Shown here: positions 19,110 through 30,518 of the stretch, piece after piece
Layout: each line of letters begins with the position of its first letter
Position numbering within the stretch: the stretch's first letter is position 1
Assembly: GCA_002281755.1 (NCBI GenBank)
Contig: NCHB01000009.1
Coordinates: forward strand, 1-55,200
DNA from: Sulfurovum sp. 16-42-52
GTDB taxonomy: Bacteria > Campylobacterota > Campylobacteria > Campylobacterales > Sulfurovaceae
DNA length: 55,200 nucleotides
Reading direction: 5' to 3'
The notes under the pieces: model-generated
The model's input: the letters and a program-made list of their open reading frames with translations, nothing else
Database searches by the model: none
Told to the model about the DNA's origin: nothing
Made by a program: the position numbers and the translations under genes

Positions 19110-20717
19110 CTAATGTCTTTGGTTTCCGGCAAAAAAGTTGCCTGCCAAGCCCAAAGGGACTACGGTTCTGTAAAACAAGTACCTTCCGCTCAGCTCAGAC
19201 ACAAAAGCACCCAGAGTTGCGAGTAGCACGCTAATCATAGCCCATCCCACTAAGCCGCTGGCTGTGAACAAAAGTGCCAAGAGAGGCAGGGCTAATGCAA
19301 AGATTGCCAAAGAATAGACTCTCAATTTCTTTACTGTAGTAAAATGTTCCTGAAGCAGGATACGGCTTCGGTTGTATTGGTAGTAAAGTGGATCCTCTTT
19401 GTCAAGATTTTGGTAGAACATCATCTCTTCAAAAATGACGAATGTCTGAGCCATACCCGCTAAAAGCGTAATCGCTAAAAGCACCATCGCACCCTGTGTA
19501 CCGTTGTAAGCAAGCAGGACGGAAGTGATGAGTAAAAAGCCGACATACCCTGTGCCAAAGAATTTTTTATTGGTTGAGCTTCTGTCCCAACTTGGACGGG
19601 CTTTGATACGGTAAATCATCGACTGGGCGTAGATGCCGTAGATGCCTACAGCCAAGGTTACTGCTTCTAGCAAGAGTAATCCAACACCCGTTTTTTGTAG
19701 ATAATAGAGCAGGGCAACCATAGAAACTAATCCTGTAAATGCACCCAAGGCTATAGCTTCACGGCTTAACCACGAAGTTCTCCAGTTTTTCATCGCTTTG
19801 AGCGCCATGATGGGTCTGCCTAGATGCAGCGCAGAAAGCGGTAAACCAATCGCTGTGGGGATGAAAGCCAAAAGTGCCATGGTAAGATTTGGCTGAGGAA
19901 GATTGAACCCTAAAGCAAAGAGCAACTCACCCAAAAAGAGTGCCAAAAATGCCCCCAGACTTACTTGAGTGAGAACAGTCATAAAAACAAGAGGCAGCTC
20001 TGCATGGGCAGGTTTAAGCAGATGCTCATCGGCTACTCTGAGTGTTTCTCCTTCTTTTAGTTTTGGCAGTGTATAGCGTGTAGTCGGTTTAGTGATAGCA
20101 ACATCCGGCAAGTGTGGCGCAACACCTTCTTTGCTCATATCTTCTTCTAGCCATTGTTTGACATTAAAAACTTCTATCTCTATGGCATTACTTGGGCAGG
20201 CTTGCACACAGGCAGGGCTTTGTCCGAGTTCGAGTTTATCGGCACACATATGACATTTGGTCACGATGCCACGATCAGCGTTAAAAGTCGGCACTTCATA
20301 GGGGCAGTTCCACGTACAGTATTGGCATCCGATACAACTAGGGTCATCATGCCAAACGATACCGTTATCAAATTTCACATAAGATTCGGTAGGACAGCCT
20401 ATGAGACAGGCAGGCTCGATGCAGTGGTTGCAGCTCATGGAGTTAAAGAGTTGGAGTGTATCGGGGAATGCGCCCATCTCCATCTCACCGACTCGTCGCC
20501 ATTTGATCTCATCAGGGTTTGCATTTTGTTCGTTGCAGGCTACTTCACAGCAGTGACAGCCCACACAAGCGGTCGCATCAAAGTGAAAACGGTACTGTTC
20601 TCCTTCGTTTAACACAGGCAAATCAATCGAATAATTGCCACACTGCATCCCTGTGTTGGTTTTATGGTTGATAAAATCAGCTAGAGGCGTGTGCTCGCTT
20701 AGGGCTTGAACAGCCAT
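19110..20717 (-). CDS. Fused FeS electron-transfer / DmsC-like membrane anchor protein
   Basis: 535 residues combining two proteins that are usually separate. Residues about 45-195 carry four cysteine clusters of DmsB type (CVGCHCCEVAC, CNHCIEPACLIGC, CIGCQYCTWNC, CHMC...CVQAC), enough for four [4Fe-4S] centres. Residues about 240-530 form eight or so membrane helices like the DmsC quinol-binding anchor. It probably takes electrons from quinol and passes them to the nitrate reductase encoded next. No signal peptide or twin-arginine motif is present, so the FeS part faces the cytoplasm. The start codon overlaps the nirA stop by one base. Confidence 0.88.
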   Translation of the reverse strand: MAVQALSEHTPLADFINHKTNTGMQCGNYSIDLPVLNEGEQYRFHFDATACVGCHCCEVACNEQNANPDEIKWRRVGEMEMGAFPDTLQLFNSMSCNHCIEPACLIGCPTESYVKFDNGIVWHDDPSCIGCQYCTWNCPYEVPTFNADRGIVTKCHMCADKLELGQSPACVQACPSNAIEIEVFNVKQWLEEDMSKEGVAPHLPDVAITKPTTRYTLPKLKEGETLRVADEHLLKPAHAELPLVFMTVLTQVSLGAFLALFLGELLFALGFNLPQPNLTMALLAFIPTAIGLPLSALHLGRPIMALKAMKNWRTSWLSREAIALGAFTGLVSMVALLYYLQKTGVGLLLLEAVTLAVGIYGIYAQSMIYRIKARPSWDRSSTNKKFFGTGYVGFLLITSVLLAYNGTQGAMVLLAITLLAGMAQTFVIFEEMMFYQNLDKEDPLYYQYNRSRILLQEHFTTVKKLRVYSLAIFALALPLLALLFTASGLVGWAMISVLLATLGAFVSELSGRYLFYRTVVPLGLAGNFFAGNQRH

Positions 20718-22642
20718 TATGCTATTTCCTTCAAGGCTACAAGCAGTTCAGAAAAAACCGCTACACGCTCTTTTTTGTTTTCATGGGTCATGTTGTAGAG
20801 TATCTCTGATAGTTTAAGAGGGACTTTTGGGTTGAGTTTGCTGACCGTGTCTCTTTTGATGCTGGTGGGTTTAAGCATATTGGGTGAGAGTTCCACCACC
20901 GACTCAAAGCGTTTTTCACCGGTGAGCAGTTTGTAGAGCTTCAGCCCAAACCCAAAGAGTTCATACTCTTCACGTCTGGAGCTTTTGGGTTCACTTTCGA
21001 GTTCCAGTGTGACATCAAGACCCAGTTTCTCATGGAGCACATAGTTTATTTTTGTAAAAAATGCCAAAGCCTGAAAACTGTAGTTTCGTGACAAAAAGCG
21101 ATCATCAAACATCTCATAGGTTTCACCTCTTAGCTTATGTGTCGCGTAAGTTTGAAGCAGGTACTTGACATGATGTTTGGCTTCGGTGATGGGTAGGGCT
21201 TTATGTAGGGTGTGTGCTTCTTTTGCTTCGCGTGTGATTTTGCCTCCCACAAAGATATGTACGCCATCCACCTTTTTACCTTCAGCATCTTTGGCGATGC
21301 ACCCTTCAAACCCAATGTCGGCTATGCCATGCACCCCACATCCTTTGGGGCATGCTGACCAGTTCATGCGCACCGATGCATTGGGTATGGCAACCTCAGA
21401 GCTTAAGAAGTGTGCCATTTCTATGGCATCGGGTTTGTTGGGTATGACCCCAAAACTGCAGGTTGCTGTTCCTGCGCAGGCTATCATGTCACTGAAGTAG
21501 AGGTTGTTGTAGGCTGCATAGTGTTTTACAACAGGGGCAGACTCAAAGCCCTCAAGTGCCTCTTTGGTGATGGAAGGGATATAGACATTTTGATCATAGG
21601 TGAGTCTGAGCTCTCCTTGGGCAAATGTTTTTGCTGCATGGGCTACATCTATCATGTGGCTACCACTAAAAATGCCTGAAGGCACGATGAGTTTGTAGGC
21701 AAAGGTGCCGTCACGACCCAAAACTTTGTTTGAACCCAGTGCGATAGACTGCGACTGCACTAGAGTCGCTCCTGCTGAGGTAAAATCACAGGCTGCTTCA
21801 GACTTAACTCCTTGGATGAAGGCGTCCATGCCCACATCATTGAGTAGATAGACCAAACGGTTTTTGTTGCGATTGTCTCGGTAGCCGTAGGTTTTAAAGA
21901 CACTCAAGAGTGATTTGAAAAACAGTGGAACTTCTGAGATGGTGACAAAGAGATTGGCATCTTGTGCCTGCATCCCCACACGCGCACCCAAGTAGACATT
22001 GAAGCCAAAGATACCCTCTTTTTGTGCCAATACAAAACAGCAGTCATGACCAAAGATGTTGCAAGAGTTTGAGAGTGAACCCAGTATGCCGGTGTTAAAT
22101 TTACGCGGAAGCACGGAAATCCATTCGGGGTTTTCGCCAAATACTTCTTGCAGTGCATCAATGATGGGTTTGGTAGGTATCACATTATCATACGCGATGC
22201 CATCAAGGGGGTCTGTGACGATGTTTCGCGGATTGTCCACACCGGTTTGAAAGGTAGAGATGCCGACTGTTTTGAGTTCTCTGAGCACTTTGGCGATGTT
22301 CTCTATCTTCAAGTAACGCAGTTCAACCTGCATCCGTGTGGTGAGGTCGATGTAGTCATTGCCATACTTTTGTGCTACTTCACCGATGCATACAGCCTGT
22401 TCATAGTTGAGCTGTCCTGCTGGAATACGCACACGCAACATGAAGTCTTCGCCTTTGTCAAAAAGACCAAAACATTTTAAAAAGTAAGCAGAGTCTTCCG
22501 CGGCGAGCTTTTCATATCCGCCTGCAGCGATCTCGTCCAGTTTATCGTAGACATCCATTGGGCTTTTGAGTGCTTTGGTGTTCTCTACTTTATTGAGTTT
22601 GGTGTTTCTAGCCTGAGCAGCTTTTTCTAAGATCTGTGTCAT
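20717..22642 (-). CDS. nirA: Siroheme nitrite reductase (ferredoxin type) with extra C-terminal tail
   Basis: Reduces nitrite to ammonium in the cytoplasm with siroheme and a [4Fe-4S] cluster. I prefer the ATG at 22642 (641 residues); a GTG four codons upstream is possible. Two ferredoxin-like half domains are present, and the cluster/siroheme cysteines lie in CAGTATC and CPKGCG (about residues 389, 395, 431, 435). The usual NirA fold would end near residue 535. About 105 more residues follow, and the last 84 resemble the C-terminal lobe of a Ser/Thr kinase (see findings). First gene of the operon with the FeS/anchor fusion and nitrate reductase. A box and a perfect TATAAT lie upstream. Confidence 0.9.
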   Translation of the reverse strand: MTQILEKAAQARNTKLNKVENTKALKSPMDVYDKLDEIAAGGYEKLAAEDSAYFLKCFGLFDKGEDFMLRVRIPAGQLNYEQAVCIGEVAQKYGNDYIDLTTRMQVELRYLKIENIAKVLRELKTVGISTFQTGVDNPRNIVTDPLDGIAYDNVIPTKPIIDALQEVFGENPEWISVLPRKFNTGILGSLSNSCNIFGHDCCFVLAQKEGIFGFNVYLGARVGMQAQDANLFVTISEVPLFFKSLLSVFKTYGYRDNRNKNRLVYLLNDVGMDAFIQGVKSEAACDFTSAGATLVQSQSIALGSNKVLGRDGTFAYKLIVPSGIFSGSHMIDVAHAAKTFAQGELRLTYDQNVYIPSITKEALEGFESAPVVKHYAAYNNLYFSDMIACAGTATCSFGVIPNKPDAIEMAHFLSSEVAIPNASVRMNWSACPKGCGVHGIADIGFEGCIAKDAEGKKVDGVHIFVGGKITREAKEAHTLHKALPITEAKHHVKYLLQTYATHKLRGETYEMFDDRFLSRNYSFQALAFFTKINYVLHEKLGLDVTLELESEPKSSRREEYELFGFGLKLYKLLTGEKRFESVVELSPNMLKPTSIKRDTVSKLNPKVPLKLSEILYNMTHENKKERVAVFSELLVALKEIA

Positions 22643-22680
22643 GGTTTTCTTCACTTTTATGGTTTCATTTTAATTTTTTG

Positions 22681-22848: not shown

Positions 22849-24129
22849 ATGGCAGGATTTAAAGCATTAAAAGGTCAAGGTCATGCACCAACGTTGTTCA
22901 TGGCTTTTTTGTATTTTGATATGAGTTTTATGGTGTGGACGATGTTGGGTCCATTGGCAACTGAGATTTCTGAAGCCTTGGCGGCAACAGGGTTTATGAT
23001 CACCGAAGGACAAAAGGCAACCTTGCTGTCTTTGCCGATACTCTCAGGGGCATTTTTAAGGATTGTACTGGGTTTTGGTGTCGATAAATTTGGGGCAAAA
23101 GCAACGGCACTTGTCGCTCAGGCTATCGTTATCGCGGCACTTTTGAGTGCCTATATGATGGGAGAGACCATCACTTACAATGCACTGTTGCTCATTGCAC
23201 TGGGGTTAGGGTTTGCAGGAGCCTCTTTTGCGGTGGCGCTTCCTCAGGCTGGACAGTGGTATCCGCCAAAGTCCCAAGGAACGGTTCTGGGACTTGCAGG
23301 TGCAGGGAATATCGGTGTGGTCATCGACTTTTTGTTTGCACCCAAGATAGCAGAACTGTGGGGCTGGCAATCGGTATTTTTAGTGGGCGCAGTGATGGCG
23401 ATAGCGGTATTTGTCGCGTATCTTTTCTTGGCAAAAGATGCACCCGCATCCATCTACAAAGCAAGACCTAAAAAGCTTATCGATTATGCCAAATTGCTCA
23501 AAGACAAAGATACTTGGTGGTTTAACCTCTTTTATGCGGTGAGTTTTGGTGGTTTTGTCGGCTTTGCAGGCTATATGCAAGTCTATTTGATGAATGTGTA
23601 TCAAGCAGATATGAGTGCCATCGGACTAGACATTTTAGATGAAGCCAATGTGAAAGTGGTTGCAGGATATTTTGGTGCACTGTGTATCTTTGCCGGTGCA
23701 GTGCTTAGACCCGTAGGTGGTGCCATAGCCGATAAAATGGGCGGGGTCAAGTCACTTTACATCTTCTTTGGCACCGTCACTGCTTTGGCGATGCTCAATG
23801 CCACTGTCTCACTTCCCTTTGGCGTGGCTATCGTGGTGCTGTTTCTCATCATGGCAAATCTTGGTATGGCAAACGGGGCGGTCTTTCAACTGGTGCCACA
23901 GCGTTTTGGCAAAGATATCGGCATTATGACAGGCATCATCGGTGCAGCAGGTGGGCTTGGCGGAACAGCACTCATCAAAACATTCGGATGGTCAAAAGGT
24001 GCATTTGACGGTTATGGGGCAGGGTTTATGATCGTTGCGGTGGTTGTGTTGGTGGCTATTATGGGGATTTCATTGGTAAAAACACGCTGGAGAACCACAT
24101 GGGGTGTTCACTCAGGCGGTATCATTTAA
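22849..24129 (+). CDS. narK: Nitrate/nitrite transporter, MFS family
   Basis: 426-residue major facilitator of the nitrate/nitrite porter family, with 12 predicted membrane helices. Family signatures are visible: the ASFAVALPQAGQWYPP and GLAGAGNIGV segments in the N-terminal half, and ANGAVFQLVPQRF and GIIGAAGGLGG in the C-terminal half. It stands alone on the plus strand, opposite the nirA operon, and is the obvious nitrate importer for the assimilatory pathway. RBS AGGAAG is just upstream of the ATG. The gene is followed closely by a convergent trigger-factor-like gene with no clear terminator between them. Confidence 0.94.
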   Translation: MAGFKALKGQGHAPTLFMAFLYFDMSFMVWTMLGPLATEISEALAATGFMITEGQKATLLSLPILSGAFLRIVLGFGVDKFGAKATALVAQAIVIAALLSAYMMGETITYNALLLIALGLGFAGASFAVALPQAGQWYPPKSQGTVLGLAGAGNIGVVIDFLFAPKIAELWGWQSVFLVGAVMAIAVFVAYLFLAKDAPASIYKARPKKLIDYAKLLKDKDTWWFNLFYAVSFGGFVGFAGYMQVYLMNVYQADMSAIGLDILDEANVKVVAGYFGALCIFAGAVLRPVGGAIADKMGGVKSLYIFFGTVTALAMLNATVSLPFGVAIVVLFLIMANLGMANGAVFQLVPQRFGKDIGIMTGIIGAAGGLGGTALIKTFGWSKGAFDGYGAGFMIVAVVVLVAIMGISLVKTRWRTTWGVHSGGII

Positions 24130-24139
24130 GATACTGATG

Positions 24140-25411
24140 CTAGAGATTGAACCCTAGCATCTGACCAAAGAGTTTGTCTTCGGTGAGTCTCATCTTGGCT
24201 GATTGCATCAAATTGTTTTTTTCATAATGTGCCACAAGTTCCTGTGCATCCTGTCCTGACATCATCGCTTGATAGTACAGTGCTGAGAGCACTTCTTGGT
24301 CAGTAACAACGACATTTTCTTTTATCGCCAAAGCTTCCACGATGAGTGCCAGCTTGATGCTGTTTTGAGCCGCTTCTTTTACACTTTCTCTAAGCGCATG
24401 AAAAAGTGCTTTGTCCTCTTTGTAGCGAGTCTGCTCTGCTGCATCCATCTGCTGGAGTGCTTCAAAGCTTTTGGCATCTATCTCCTGCTCCACGACATTT
24501 TGAGGCAGGGTAAAGCTAAACAGTTTAAGCAGTCCTTGCGTAAGTTTAGGTTTAAGCTCCCCATAATAGCGCTGTGTCAAGACATCTGAGGTGATCTGAT
24601 CGGCTAGTTTTCCTTTGAGTGTCTCAAGCGTGGCAGTGGCGTCATTGAGTATTTTTTGTCCAAAGGCATCGTTTAGCTCAAGCGGCTTTTGTTCTTGTAT
24701 CTCATGCAGTTTGACTTTAAACTGCGTCTCTTTTCCTGCCAAATCAGCAGACTGATACTCGGTTGGAAAGGTAACAGAGATGGTTTTTTCTTCGCCGTAG
24801 TTCATGCCGATAAGCTGTTCTTCAAACCTTGGTATAAAAGAGTTTGAACCTATTTTGAGGTTAAATTTTTCAGCCGCACCTCCTTCAAAAGCAACCCCGT
24901 CCAAAAACCCTTCAAAGTCTATGACACACACATCGCCAAACATCACTGTTCTTGGTTCTGCTATGGCAGTAAACGGAGCCTGTTGTGTCGCCATCTCAAG
25001 CAGTTTGGCTTCTACTTTTTTAGGGTCTGCTGTGGGTTTTTTGTACGCAGGTATAGCAGCTTTATAGTTGATGGAAGTATCAACAAAAGGGCTTGTGGAG
25101 AGTAGTATCTCAAGATAGATACCCACCTCTTGCTTTTCATATTTTCTAAATCCCGGTTGTCCCAAGATACTCTCGACATCCACACCGGCAACTTTAAGAC
25201 CTTCTTGGATAAATGCTTTGAGTATCTGGCTTGCTGCTTCTTGCTCGAACTGTTCATCACTCATCTGCGTAGGCTCGGTATCTGAGGGCTGCCCAGGTGT
25301 TTTTGCCGCTTGTTCTTTGAGCTCTGAGACCTTTTGTTGGGTGAGTGCATCTTCGATTGTACCGATGAGAATCATATTGATATCATCTATTTTTTCAACG
25401 CGTATGTTCAC
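24140..25411 (-). CDS. Trigger factor-like FKBP-type peptidyl-prolyl isomerase
   Basis: 423 residues with a GTG start after AAGGA. The FKBP-like domain is clear at about residues 160-245 (VIDFEGFLDGVAFEGG, FIPRFEEQLIGM), followed by the helical C-terminal chaperone arms of trigger factor. The N-terminal domain has the family's strand/helix pattern and VAGVDVESILGQPGF, but the ribosome-docking signature GFRxGxxP, expected near residue 45, is replaced by a Pro/Thr/Glu-rich stretch. It may be a second, ribosome-independent trigger factor, or a diverged sole copy. It is convergent with narK and unrelated to nitrogen genes by sequence. Confidence 0.85.
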   Translation of the reverse strand: MNIRVEKIDDINMILIGTIEDALTQQKVSELKEQAAKTPGQPSDTEPTQMSDEQFEQEAASQILKAFIQEGLKVAGVDVESILGQPGFRKYEKQEVGIYLEILLSTSPFVDTSINYKAAIPAYKKPTADPKKVEAKLLEMATQQAPFTAIAEPRTVMFGDVCVIDFEGFLDGVAFEGGAAEKFNLKIGSNSFIPRFEEQLIGMNYGEEKTISVTFPTEYQSADLAGKETQFKVKLHEIQEQKPLELNDAFGQKILNDATATLETLKGKLADQITSDVLTQRYYGELKPKLTQGLLKLFSFTLPQNVVEQEIDAKSFEALQQMDAAEQTRYKEDKALFHALRESVKEAAQNSIKLALIVEALAIKENVVVTDQEVLSALYYQAMMSGQDAQELVAHYEKNNLMQSAKMRLTEDKLFGQMLGFNL

Positions 25412-26179: not shown

Positions 26180-27820
26180 ATGGCATATCAAAACATGGAA
26201 ACATCCGGATTTATGCTTGCAAAAGGCAAACATCTTAAAGGTGATGATTTTTTTGAAGTCAAAGTGATGGAAAATCTAACCGTAGCAGTGTTATGCGATG
26301 GCGTAGGGTCTGCACTTCAGGGCGCGCAAGCTGCTTCACACACCGTTGTTTTTCTTATCAATGCACTCAAAAACAGACCTAAAAGCTGGACGATGGAAAA
26401 ATCCATCAAACACTTTATAGAAACGATTAACAGAGTGCTCTATCTGGAATCCTTGACACAGTACGGACGGCAAGAACTGGTTACTACCCTGGCGTTGGTC
26501 GTCATAGAAGGTGACAGACTCTACGGTGCCAATGTGGGTGACAGCCGTATCTACTTGAAGCGAAGTGATCAAGAGGCTGCATTGACCCAGCTTTCACATG
26601 ATCATGTGATGGAAGAAGAAGGCATGAGCAATGTTTTGACGATGGCTATCGGGTTAGAAGAGCATGTTTCGCCGTATTATTTTGAGAACAATCTTTTAGC
26701 GCAAGACCAGATACTGCTGTGCAGTGACGGACTTTACACGGTACTGGGTCAAAAGGAATTGCTTGATGGTATGAAAATGGGTGCCTCATTTTTGGTCAAA
26801 CAAGCCAGTAACCTACACCAAGACAATCTTCCGGATGATACTTCTGCGGTGGTCATCGAGATCAAAGAGGTAGATCCCAGACTCAAACTCAAACAGAGCA
26901 ATCTGCTCGTAAAACCACAGTATGAATCACAAGAAACTATAGACGGATACACCTTGCTTAAACCGCTCATACAAAACGAACGCACGTGGCTGTGCGAAAA
27001 AAACGGATTGCAGTACGTCATTAAGTTTGCTCCCTATGAGACGCTCGAAGATGAAGTCTTGCTTGATTTGTTTGTGAAAGAAGCGTGGATGGCAAAAAGA
27101 CTCAAAGCAGGCTTTTTTCCTAAAGCCGTCATACCCAAAAACCGTACCCAGCGGTATTATGTGATGAGTTTCATCGAAGGGGTGACGCTCAAAGCGCATA
27201 CTGCCAAAAAACCGCTTTCTGTGGATTTGGGCATCGAATTGGGGATGTTTTTACTGAAGATGTCGCAGTTTTTGATCAAGTATGACCTTGTGCATGGTGA
27301 CATTAAACCTGAAAATATTATGCTCACGCAGCGCAGAGGAAAAACCGTATTTAAAATGGTTGATTTTGGCAGTATCACCGAGGCGTATGCGAACATCTCA
27401 CGCGCAGGGACACCGACCTACCTTGCACCTGAACGTTTCAGGCAAGAGCCTATTAACGAACAAACCGAAATCTACGCCATAGGCGTAACCCTCTATGAAG
27501 CCCTGACACAGAAATACCCTTTTGGAGAGATAGAACCTTTCCAAAACCCATCGTTTGATCGAAAAATCAAAGCACCCTCCAAGCTCAACCCCAACATACC
27601 CACATGGCTTGAAAGCATCATGCTAAGAGCACTAGAGCCCGACACCGACAAACGCTACCGAAACTACTCTTTGATGCAGTATGAACTCACCCATCCAAGC
27701 AATGTTAAGCCGTATTTTGATAAACACAGCTCTTTTATTGAAAGAAACCCTTTACTCGTCTGCCGCATCGGATTTGTGATTATGCTGGTGTTAAATTTTG
27801 TGCAGATGGTTTGGTTTTAG
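26180..27820 (+). CDS. Bifunctional PP2C protein phosphatase / Ser-Thr kinase, membrane-anchored
   Basis: 546 residues. The N-terminal PP2C phosphatase domain (about 1-235) shows the metal-binding VLCDGVGSA (Asp40) and NVGDSRIY and CSDGLY motifs. The kinase domain (about 255-515) has a catalytic-type loop HGDIKPEN (H372, D374; HGD instead of HRD), DFG at 395-397 and an APE segment. One membrane helix lies at the C-terminus (about 525-545). Such fusions are known beside nitrate-assimilation genes in other proteobacteria, for example near nasA/nirB in pseudomonads, and narK is 2 kb upstream here. A regulatory role in nitrogen assimilation is inferred from this. AAAGG precedes the ATG. Confidence 0.9.
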   Translation: MAYQNMETSGFMLAKGKHLKGDDFFEVKVMENLTVAVLCDGVGSALQGAQAASHTVVFLINALKNRPKSWTMEKSIKHFIETINRVLYLESLTQYGRQELVTTLALVVIEGDRLYGANVGDSRIYLKRSDQEAALTQLSHDHVMEEEGMSNVLTMAIGLEEHVSPYYFENNLLAQDQILLCSDGLYTVLGQKELLDGMKMGASFLVKQASNLHQDNLPDDTSAVVIEIKEVDPRLKLKQSNLLVKPQYESQETIDGYTLLKPLIQNERTWLCEKNGLQYVIKFAPYETLEDEVLLDLFVKEAWMAKRLKAGFFPKAVIPKNRTQRYYVMSFIEGVTLKAHTAKKPLSVDLGIELGMFLLKMSQFLIKYDLVHGDIKPENIMLTQRRGKTVFKMVDFGSITEAYANISRAGTPTYLAPERFRQEPINEQTEIYAIGVTLYEALTQKYPFGEIEPFQNPSFDRKIKAPSKLNPNIPTWLESIMLRALEPDTDKRYRNYSLMQYELTHPSNVKPYFDKHSSFIERNPLLVCRIGFVIMLVLNFVQMVWF

Positions 27821-27977: not shown

Positions 27978-30518
27978 ATGAACGACAATCAAGACTATAT
28001 GAAAGTGGCGAATAAGCTTAGAAAATCGCTCACTGCTGAGCTGTTTGGGCAAGACAGAGCCATTGATGCCATTGTCAACAGTATCAAAACTAATATCCTC
28101 ACAACAAAAAACGGCCCAAAAGCAACCTATCTGTTTTTGGGTTCACCTGCAACGGGTAAGACCTACCTTGCAGAGTTGATGACTAAAAATATGCCTGAGT
28201 ATAAGATACGAAAATTTGACATGACGCAGTACCATGAGCAAAACGGCGGGGAGTTGTACGGTTACCCCAAAGGCTGGTCGGGCTACAGCATCGGGCAGCT
28301 GACAGGTTTTGTGCATGACCACCCCAAATCCATCATCGTGTTGGATGCGTTTGAAAAAGCAGATAATGTCATACAAACTAACCTTTTGTCTATCTTTGAG
28401 GGCGGGGTGATGCGTGATGCCTGCGGGTGGGACAAGATAACAGACCAGCCGTGTAATGATGCAGAGGAGAAGGTGTATACTGAAGATAATGCACATTTTG
28501 TCGTGGATTTTAAAGAGTCAATCTTTATTATTACTTCCAGTTTAGGTGAAGAGCTTTACTCGGACACTAAATTTGTCAAGCTCATTGATGATGACTACAT
28601 TCAAGCTGAGTCGATGATACTCGAAGCCCTCAAAAGAGAAGAAAAGCCTAATATCAAATCAGGCGGGATGCAAAAAGCGATTATCCCCGAGCTTATCTCG
28701 CGCTTCTCACAGGCAACCATCGTGTTGTTTAACAAGCTTAACTATCCTGCTTATGAGGCTATCGGTCAAAAAGCCTTCTTGGAGTACCAAGAGGTATTTA
28801 AAACCAAGTTCCAGCTAGCGTTTTTAGCAGATAAACATTTTCAAAACTTTTTAAAAACCCAAATCCTGCTTTTTGCACCTGAACTTGATGCCAGACGGAT
28901 CAAAAACAAAGTGGGTGAAAACTTTTTTAGTAAACTGACAGATTATCTCATCAGTTTGGGTGATGAGATGCCAAAGTATAATGAAATCAAAGTCGTGCTG
29001 AGTAAAAAAACCGTTGACTTCATAGAAGAAAACATTTCAACGCTTATCGCTGAACAAAAACTGGTCAAAGAGCTGTTTAGAAAAAACATCAAACTCGAAA
29101 TCGATGAGGGCTTTAGCGCCAAAGGCACGACGATTATTTATACCATCAAAAACTGTCGGTTTAAGCAGGTGAAGCGTATCAAAGATTTTAGTGAGGATGG
29201 ACTGGTATTTGATATCCCTAATGTTTCGTTTGCCGATATCGCAGGGCATACGACCGCTAAGACAAGGCTCAGGGAGGTCATCAACTTTTTAAAAGAGCCC
29301 AAAATGCTCAAAGCCTTTAATGTCCAACCGCCAAAAGGAATGCTGCTTTATGGTCCTCCCGGTACAGGAAAAACACTTTTGGCAAAGGCATTTTCGGCTG
29401 AAGCGCAGTTGCCTTTTATCTCTATCACGGGTGTAGAGCTGTTACAGTTGGATAAGATCAAAAAAGTATTTGCCAAAGCCAAAGAGTATGCGCCGTCTAT
29501 CATTTTTATCGATGAGATTGACACCATCGGTATACGAGAAAAAGGCAATAACCGCGAAGTGCAGATCAATAAATTTTTAGCCGAAATGGATGGATTTTCG
29601 AATAAAGAGGATGAAAATGTCTTTATCATCGCGGCAACCAACTATAAAGAAAACATCGACAGTGCAATCATCCGACCCGGAAGAATCGAGATACATATCA
29701 AGATAGATGATTTGGATAAAGATGCCAGAAAATATTTTATCGATAAAATCATCAAACATAAACCAACCAGTGGCAAGTTTGACATGCATAAGCTTTTGAC
29801 TTACACCGCAGGCATGACGGGTGCACAGCTAGAACTGGTAAGCAAAGAGGCATCATACTACTGCATTAGACACAACTTGGCGCATATCACGGAGGAGATA
29901 TTGATTAAACAGATCAATACCATCAAATACGGTGAAAACATCTCACACATCTCCAACGAACAACTTTTTCTCAAAGCTTCCATCAAAGAAGCAGCACATG
30001 CGGTTGTCTCAAAGATACTGATGCCTCAGCTTAAGATAAAACAAATCGCACTCACACCACGCAACCCTAAAAACGGCTTTATTGCCAACAATTATGAAGA
30101 GGGTGAAAGTAATATGACCATTGAAGATATCCAAAATAGAATGTGTGTATCGCTAGCGGGCAGAATAGCACAAATCAAAAAATATGGAAGTATCGAGGGC
30201 TTAGATATGCAAGGTTCTGCGGATTTGCAGCATGCTATCCACGATGCCTATATGGCGATTACCCACTACGGAATGGATGCAGAGGTGAGGTATGTCAATA
30301 TGAAAGGACATACCGCTGCCCAGCAGCATACACACACCCCAAACAACACACAACAAAGTACAAAAAAAATTGATGATGCACTTGAACGATGGATGATGCA
30401 GAGCGAGCAGAAAACCATTAAGCTAGTAGAGGCACATTGGGAAAAGATAGAGAAATTATCACTTCATTTACTTGATAAAGAGATACTCTATAAGGATGAT
30501 TTGGAAGATATTGTCTAG
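27978..30518 (+). CDS. Double AAA protein: ClpB-like module fused to FtsH-like AAA and pseudo-M41 domain
   Basis: 846 residues with no membrane segment. Residues about 20-260 look like the second AAA module of ClpA/ClpB: Walker A GSPATGKT (56-63), pore-loop-like GWSGY, IIVLDAFEKAD (Walker B with Ala124 in place of the catalytic Glu). After a linker, residues about 415-650 are an FtsH-type AAA: GPPGTGKT (459-466), IIFIDEID and AATNY...RPGR; the FVG pore loop of FtsH is deleted. Residues about 655-775 resemble the M41 peptidase, but HEAGH is KEAAH (670-674), losing one zinc histidine, while the distal Asp (749) is kept. Probably a remodelling or scaffold protein, not a protease. The promoter region upstream is 157 bases; the ribosome binding site is weak. 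Confidence 0.85.
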   Translation: MNDNQDYMKVANKLRKSLTAELFGQDRAIDAIVNSIKTNILTTKNGPKATYLFLGSPATGKTYLAELMTKNMPEYKIRKFDMTQYHEQNGGELYGYPKGWSGYSIGQLTGFVHDHPKSIIVLDAFEKADNVIQTNLLSIFEGGVMRDACGWDKITDQPCNDAEEKVYTEDNAHFVVDFKESIFIITSSLGEELYSDTKFVKLIDDDYIQAESMILEALKREEKPNIKSGGMQKAIIPELISRFSQATIVLFNKLNYPAYEAIGQKAFLEYQEVFKTKFQLAFLADKHFQNFLKTQILLFAPELDARRIKNKVGENFFSKLTDYLISLGDEMPKYNEIKVVLSKKTVDFIEENISTLIAEQKLVKELFRKNIKLEIDEGFSAKGTTIIYTIKNCRFKQVKRIKDFSEDGLVFDIPNVSFADIAGHTTAKTRLREVINFLKEPKMLKAFNVQPPKGMLLYGPPGTGKTLLAKAFSAEAQLPFISITGVELLQLDKIKKVFAKAKEYAPSIIFIDEIDTIGIREKGNNREVQINKFLAEMDGFSNKEDENVFIIAATNYKENIDSAIIRPGRIEIHIKIDDLDKDARKYFIDKIIKHKPTSGKFDMHKLLTYTAGMTGAQLELVSKEASYYCIRHNLAHITEEILIKQINTIKYGENISHISNEQLFLKASIKEAAHAVVSKILMPQLKIKQIALTPRNPKNGFIANNYEEGESNMTIEDIQNRMCVSLAGRIAQIKKYGSIEGLDMQGSADLQHAIHDAYMAITHYGMDAEVRYVNMKGHTAAQQHTHTPNNTQQSTKKIDDALERWMMQSEQKTIKLVEAHWEKIEKLSLHLLDKEILYKDDLEDIV

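Follow-up and report, generated by a model that had tools for sequence, protein, structure and literature searches.

In this locus of a vent-type bacterium, the nitrite reductase gene raises a simple question: does its product end in a piece of a protein kinase and, if so, where did that piece come from and what does it do there? In the window, by which we mean the whole stretch of 55,200 nucleotides that was analysed, the first-pass annotation had pointed to positions 20720-20971 of the minus strand as a kinase-like tail of NirA. The open reading frame, the sequence and the coordinates are all correct, and the segment corresponds to NirA residues 562-645. These ~84 residues had also been taken as everything beyond the normal NirA fold; they do make up the kinase-like part, but the extension past the fold starts at about residue 532 (Table 1).

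Table 1. Features of the nirA region and its neighbours discussed in the text (positions in the window)
Feature	Coordinates	Strand	Basis or remark
nirA, siroheme/4Fe-4S nitrite reductase, 645 aa	20717..22654	-	GTG start; stop codon 20717-20719
NirA body, residues 1-531	21062..22654	-	Known NirA fold stops at 531
Helix 527-543, start of the extra part	21026..21076	-	Model; some structural alignments put it close to kinase helix E
C-terminal tail, residues 532-645	20720..21061	-	Alignments A2/A3; missing from one Campylobacterota clade and Aquificaceae-type NirA
Kinase C-lobe homologue, residues 562-645 (helices F, H, I; without helix G)	20720..20971	-	PDB profile search, hhalign, structure comparison
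Helix F equivalent, residues 562-578, with E562, E565, F567, G570 invariant (59/59 tails)	20921..20971	-	Model
Helix H equivalent, residues 613-622; M622 in 55/59 tails	20789..20818	-	Model
R630 and helix I equivalent; motif V633-F634-[ST]-E636	20729..20767	-	Conservation among 59 tails
4Fe-4S ferredoxin-type protein fused to DmsC-like membrane anchor	19110-20717	-	Between nirA and nasA
NarK-type MFS nitrate/nitrite transporter	22849..24129	+	MFS_1 4.1e-34; adjoins PPK in most tail-bearing Sulfurovum-type loci
PPK, PP2C phosphatase and Ser/Thr kinase fusion, 546 aa, VIK/HGD/DFG motifs	26180..27820	+	Closest kinase relative of the tail

The body of the protein is that of a known enzyme. Pfam finds NIR_SIR and NIR_SIR_ferr, two stretches of each domain, and the NCBIfam ferredoxin--nitrite reductase model matches at 5e-103, which falls under the model's own cut-off. 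C393, C399, C435 and C439, the siroheme/4Fe-4S cysteines, are invariant in our NirA alignment (A1). By these domains and cysteines the protein classes as a ferredoxin/NirA-type nitrite reductase and is predicted to reduce nitrite with ferredoxin. A full-length AlphaFold model from a 37-sequence alignment (mean pLDDT 91.2, pTM 0.89) matches spinach NiR, tobacco NiR and M. tuberculosis NirA with Z ~46, and the last of these (1zj8) aligns to model residues 14-531. Tail-less NirA relatives have their C-terminus at about residue 522-535.

Sequence searches relate the extra part to kinases. On its own, the window tail matches the NCBIfam models MAD6 (1.2e-5), PglW (1.5e-3) and PknB (2.4e-3), and relatives reach 2.2e-12 against PknB. 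The window tail has no match to Pfam Pkinase, which is hit by single relatives only (E about 5e-4); a match to XPB helicase (E 0.02-0.04) is at chance level and was set aside. When profiles of 23 or 59 tails were searched against the PDB, all matches listed were kinases, always through the C-lobe, with best E-values of 3.6e-9 (23 tails) and 2.5e-8 (59 tails; the 60 best of 87). HMM-HMM comparison, which had been proposed as a check, bears the kinase assignment out: hhalign of the 59 tails against 12 PP2C-kinases gives 98.5%, an E-value of 3.1e-15 and a score of 104, far above 20 column-shuffled profiles (22 at most) and a reversed profile (14). Against four PASTA kinases of the PknB type the tail profile still gives 96.7% and E 3.6e-10.

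Structure prediction, also proposed earlier, leads to the same place. A tail-only AlphaFold model (pLDDT 90.8) aligns to PknB residues 186-277, in the kinase C-lobe, with Z 7.8 over 82 residues at 3.6 Å, and in the full-length model residues 556-645 align to the same segment with Z 9.1 over 82 residues; VIA Z values below 13 are commonplace for helical bundles. For the tail-only model each of the 50 best Foldseek matches is a kinase, though the E-values are weak (7.6e-3), and kinases account for all structural matches to the full-length model that remain after the nitrite/sulfite reductases. As far as the models go, the sequence-based and structure-based mappings of the tail onto the kinase concur residue by residue. 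The sequence profiles are decisive by themselves, and the residues they map are those found by comparing structures. Common descent of the tail with the C-lobe of Hanks-type kinases is, in our judgment, virtually certain.

Only part of the lobe is present. The tail had been read as kinase helices F to I; F, H and I are matched, but helix G is missing. In the hhalign alignment of the tail with the PPK consensus, the helix G region is aligned without gaps. Helix I comprises residues 634-642 and is preceded by R630, and this end of the tail is strongly conserved among the 59 tails (R630 in 57, V633 in 56, F634 and E636 in all). Seven positions (F532, E562, E565, F567, G570, F634 and E636) are identical in every tail across two phyla. 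The V633-F634-[ST]-E636 motif is specific to the tails; its V-F positions hold other residues in kinases. At the upstream end, VIA ranges from tail residue 5-10 onward correspond to PknB 120-123, the helix E position, while hhalign finds no profile similarity to kinases over the ~36 residues with which the extra part begins. We do not claim a helix E, since the structural overlap of residues 527-543 has no support in sequence.

The remainder of the kinase is gone, as the first-pass annotation had said of the N-lobe, HRD and DFG. Residues 4-531 are NirA fold with no Pfam kinase match, leaving no kinase N-lobe and no ATP-binding lysine or glycine loop. HRD, DFG and APE are absent from the translation, the tail-kinase alignment skips those segments, and the activation segment with its APE is likewise among the parts lost. 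The tail thus lacks every part needed for ATP binding or phosphate transfer. It is not a pseudokinase, having kept helices F, H and I (helix E being uncertain) and not a whole bilobal domain. Nor is it a member of the NarK-linked PP2C-kinase family, to which it is related, as it does not combine a PP2C domain with a kinase domain.

Among kinases, the closest relative is the window's own PPK, an NCBI "bifunctional protein-serine/threonine kinase/phosphatase", as had been noticed by eye. Searched with the tail profile, the genome yields two matches only, the NirA tail (6.4e-39) and PPK (1.7e-13), and apart from two or three weak or partial matches, everything that the profile retrieves across 26 genomes is a NirA tail or a PP2C-kinase. 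The tail HMM scores mostly 41-60 bits against orthologues of PPK (two contig-cut ones score lower). PDB kinases reach no more than 40, four PASTA kinases taken from plasmid records 22-32 and the four proteobacterial PP2C-kinases that were scored 16-19. An HMM made from Aquificota tails only follows the same trend, most PPKs scoring 28-50 bits against 30 or less for the other kinases tested. The same genome carries a second PP2C-kinase fusion (G000:C24:18998-20581; loci L130 and L149), which is 28% identical to PPK, has HQD and not HGD, clusters with the proteobacterial PP2C-kinases at a distance from the NirA tail and scores 10 bits with the tail HMM.

Two glutamates at the opening of helix F carry further information about origin. 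E562 and E565 of the tail correspond to E427 and E430 of PPK, which are invariant in 12 PPKs; in the PknB set the first of these positions varies and the second is aspartate. Both families keep these two invariant glutamates and PknB does not, and therefore the tail probably descends from the PPK family. In a C-lobe tree made without three long-branched kinases, the tails come out as a single clade (100/99) that joins PPK (95/90); with those three kinases included, the tree does not settle the link to PPK. AU tests on the 80-column C-lobe alignment do not reject a placement of the tails with PknB (p 0.12-0.15). PPK's most conserved stretch, GEIEPF, is not preserved in the tail. Taken together, we consider an origin from the NarK-linked PPK family quite likely.

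Most Campylobacterota NirA carry the tail (298 genomes searched). Among 121 Aquificota genomes searched it was found in 24, where the NirA appears to be of Hydrogenothermaceae type. It is absent from one Campylobacterota clade and from Aquificaceae-type NirA. On a tree of NirA bodies rooted with tail-less Aquificota NirA, this pattern amounts to one gain and at least three losses; L119 (G217), in which NirA runs straight into nasA, is counted as tail-less, and the loss at L134 is the least certain because that NirA homologue is very divergent and long-branched. The tail is old: its single gain predates the split between Hydrogenothermaceae-type and Campylobacterota NirA. It is also under purifying selection as strong as that on the enzyme body, with dN/dS of 0-0.14 over its last 83 codons compared with 0.03-0.10 for the body, and about equal or lower values in most pairs. 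Separately, in five Aquificota loci (L191 and L193-L196), tail-less NirA homologues (~36% identity) lie inside open frames of ~1000 codons, the genes as read encoding 531-642 aa.

In most Sulfurovum-type loci, narK and the PPK gene are divergent from nirA, after which come the Fe-S/DmsC fusion gene and nasA. The Aquificota operon at L073 is built otherwise: an MFS transporter gene overlaps the 3' end of nirA, a nasA-like gene adjoins, and the kinase is absent. The tail-less clade L070/L123 has an unchanged operon with NarK, PPK, Fe-S/DmsC and NasA, and the tail is therefore dispensable there. The same type of kinase stands beside NarK or formate/nitrite transporters in Azospirillum, Acinetobacter, Methylocystis and Catenovulum. 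Its tie to nitrate/nitrite transport is therefore general, in line with the link to nitrate assimilation that the first-pass annotation had named for other bacteria.

Two other genes of this neighbourhood deserve mention in their own right. A trigger-factor-like protein (FKBP and Trigger_C; 24140-25411, minus strand) is encoded between narK and PPK, as in a few related genomes. Beyond PPK, positions 27978-30518 (plus strand) encode a protein of 846 aa, in which a Clp-type AAA domain at the N-terminus is joined by a second AAA domain of FtsH type and a Peptidase_M41 region; the HExxH zinc motif of that region is KEAAH, which probably leaves the protein without protease activity. This protein adjoins the PP2C-kinase at L002, L003, L015 and L063 as well.

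Given this setting, the tail had been proposed as a docking part for the neighbouring kinase. As a copy of PPK's own C-lobe, it could be a docking or decoy site that binds the kinase or its partners, and NirA would then be controlled by phosphorylation in connection with nitrate uptake. Within this genome the tail and PPK are more closely related to each other than to anything else, PPK lies near nirA in many Sulfurovum-type loci, and in Campylobacterota it is present in 37 of 44 genomes with tailed NirA but in 3 of 7 with tail-less NirA (Fisher p 0.03). That raw co-occurrence, the remaining check suggested at the outset, stands as a count; once phylogeny is taken into account, only 3 independent pairs are left and the association is not significant. 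Moreover, no Hanks kinase above the Pfam cut-off is found in 15 of 19 tail-bearing Aquificota, in three tailed Campylobacterota (G249, G199 and G224) or in Aquificota G298 and G299, where the best match to a PPK query is the NirA tail itself. The kinase-less genomes include incomplete assemblies, so that single absences are weak evidence, but the series is not. Conversely, PPK is retained next to tail-less NirA at L123 and L124.

The tail is thus not confined to genomes with the partner kinase, and docking on PPK is not established. The missing parts point the same way. Besides GEIEPF, the tail lacks helix G, a known docking element of kinases, so docking through helix G as in other kinases does not apply. 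We consider docking or decoy binding of PPK unlikely. Being kept where no Hanks kinase was found, the tail therefore probably has a role within NirA or with another partner, and not in kinase control.

One such partner might be an electron donor. The Fe-S/DmsC fusion may donate electrons from the membrane to nitrate or nitrite assimilation, and the tail could either recruit it or form a regulatory cover over the site of ferredoxin or another donor. That many Sulfurovum-type loci have the fusion gene flanked by nirA and nasA is consistent with this, but in Aquificota L073 a tailed NirA does without that gene adjoining, and L070 combines the gene with a tail-less NirA. We regard a donor-site role of either kind as unlikely. 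The tail could also be a functionless leftover of an ancient gene fusion, as its three or more losses without visible operon change might suggest and as the earlier reading of it as a remnant of a fused pseudokinase lobe, in the sense of a decaying part, would have it; selection on the tail like that on the body, its retention across two phyla and the seven positions that never vary among 59 tails make this very improbable. Chance likeness between helical segments without common descent, for which the weak Foldseek E-values and modest VIA Z would leave room, deserves next to no credence in the face of the sequence profiles.

The reading we favour, with moderate confidence, is that NirA uses a captured, non-catalytic half of a C-lobe as a structural or interaction module. 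A piece of a kinase C-lobe (helices F, H and I), likeliest from the NarK-adjacent PP2C-kinase gene family, would have been captured, joined to NirA in a single event and since lost on at least three occasions. It would now work as a non-catalytic module of NirA, folding against or beside the reductase and offering a fixed structural or protein-interaction surface. This surface may serve oligomerisation or hold a partner, for example the electron donor or a further pathway enzyme, and would be neither a kinase target nor a relic. For the component claim that this role is independent of kinases, we lean towards it by a little. Where tail and PPK exist together, the tail might still pair with PPK or its partners as a half-lobe adaptor that couples nitrate uptake to nitrite reduction, an arrangement we regard as improbable.

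In the literature searched, which took in few subscription papers, we found neither a kinase-like tail on NirA nor a role of NarK-linked PP2C-kinases in nitrate assimilation. The tail is probably derived from a regulator encoded beside nirA. If confirmed, the module would mean that the F-H-I core of a kinase C-lobe can stand alone as an interaction module, and it would give a handle on how NarK-linked PP2C-kinases connect with nitrite reduction.

The nitrite reductases of spinach (2AKJ), tobacco (3B0G) and M. tuberculosis (1ZJ8) share the body to residue ~531 (Z 46, ~24-29% identity), and their structures stop at the point where the window NirA's tail starts. With the NarK-linked PPK, the tail has in common C-lobe helices F, H and I, the arginine before helix I, a short loop of equal length without helix G and the invariant E..E that opens helix F. 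Unlike PPK, it has no phosphatase, N-lobe, HGD/DFG/APE or membrane tail, and it has a VF[ST]E motif of its own. PASTA/PknB-type kinases (4EQM, 9YMT, StkP and PknB 2FUM) match its profile and contain its fold in the last ~90 residues of the kinase domain, but PknB has aspartate in place of glutamate at helix F and keeps helix G and the active site intact. Pseudokinases likewise reuse the kinase fold without catalysis. Non-catalytic domains derived from kinases are usually whole pseudokinases, which mostly retain both lobes, whereas here about one third of a kinase domain is kept within a metabolic enzyme across two phyla.
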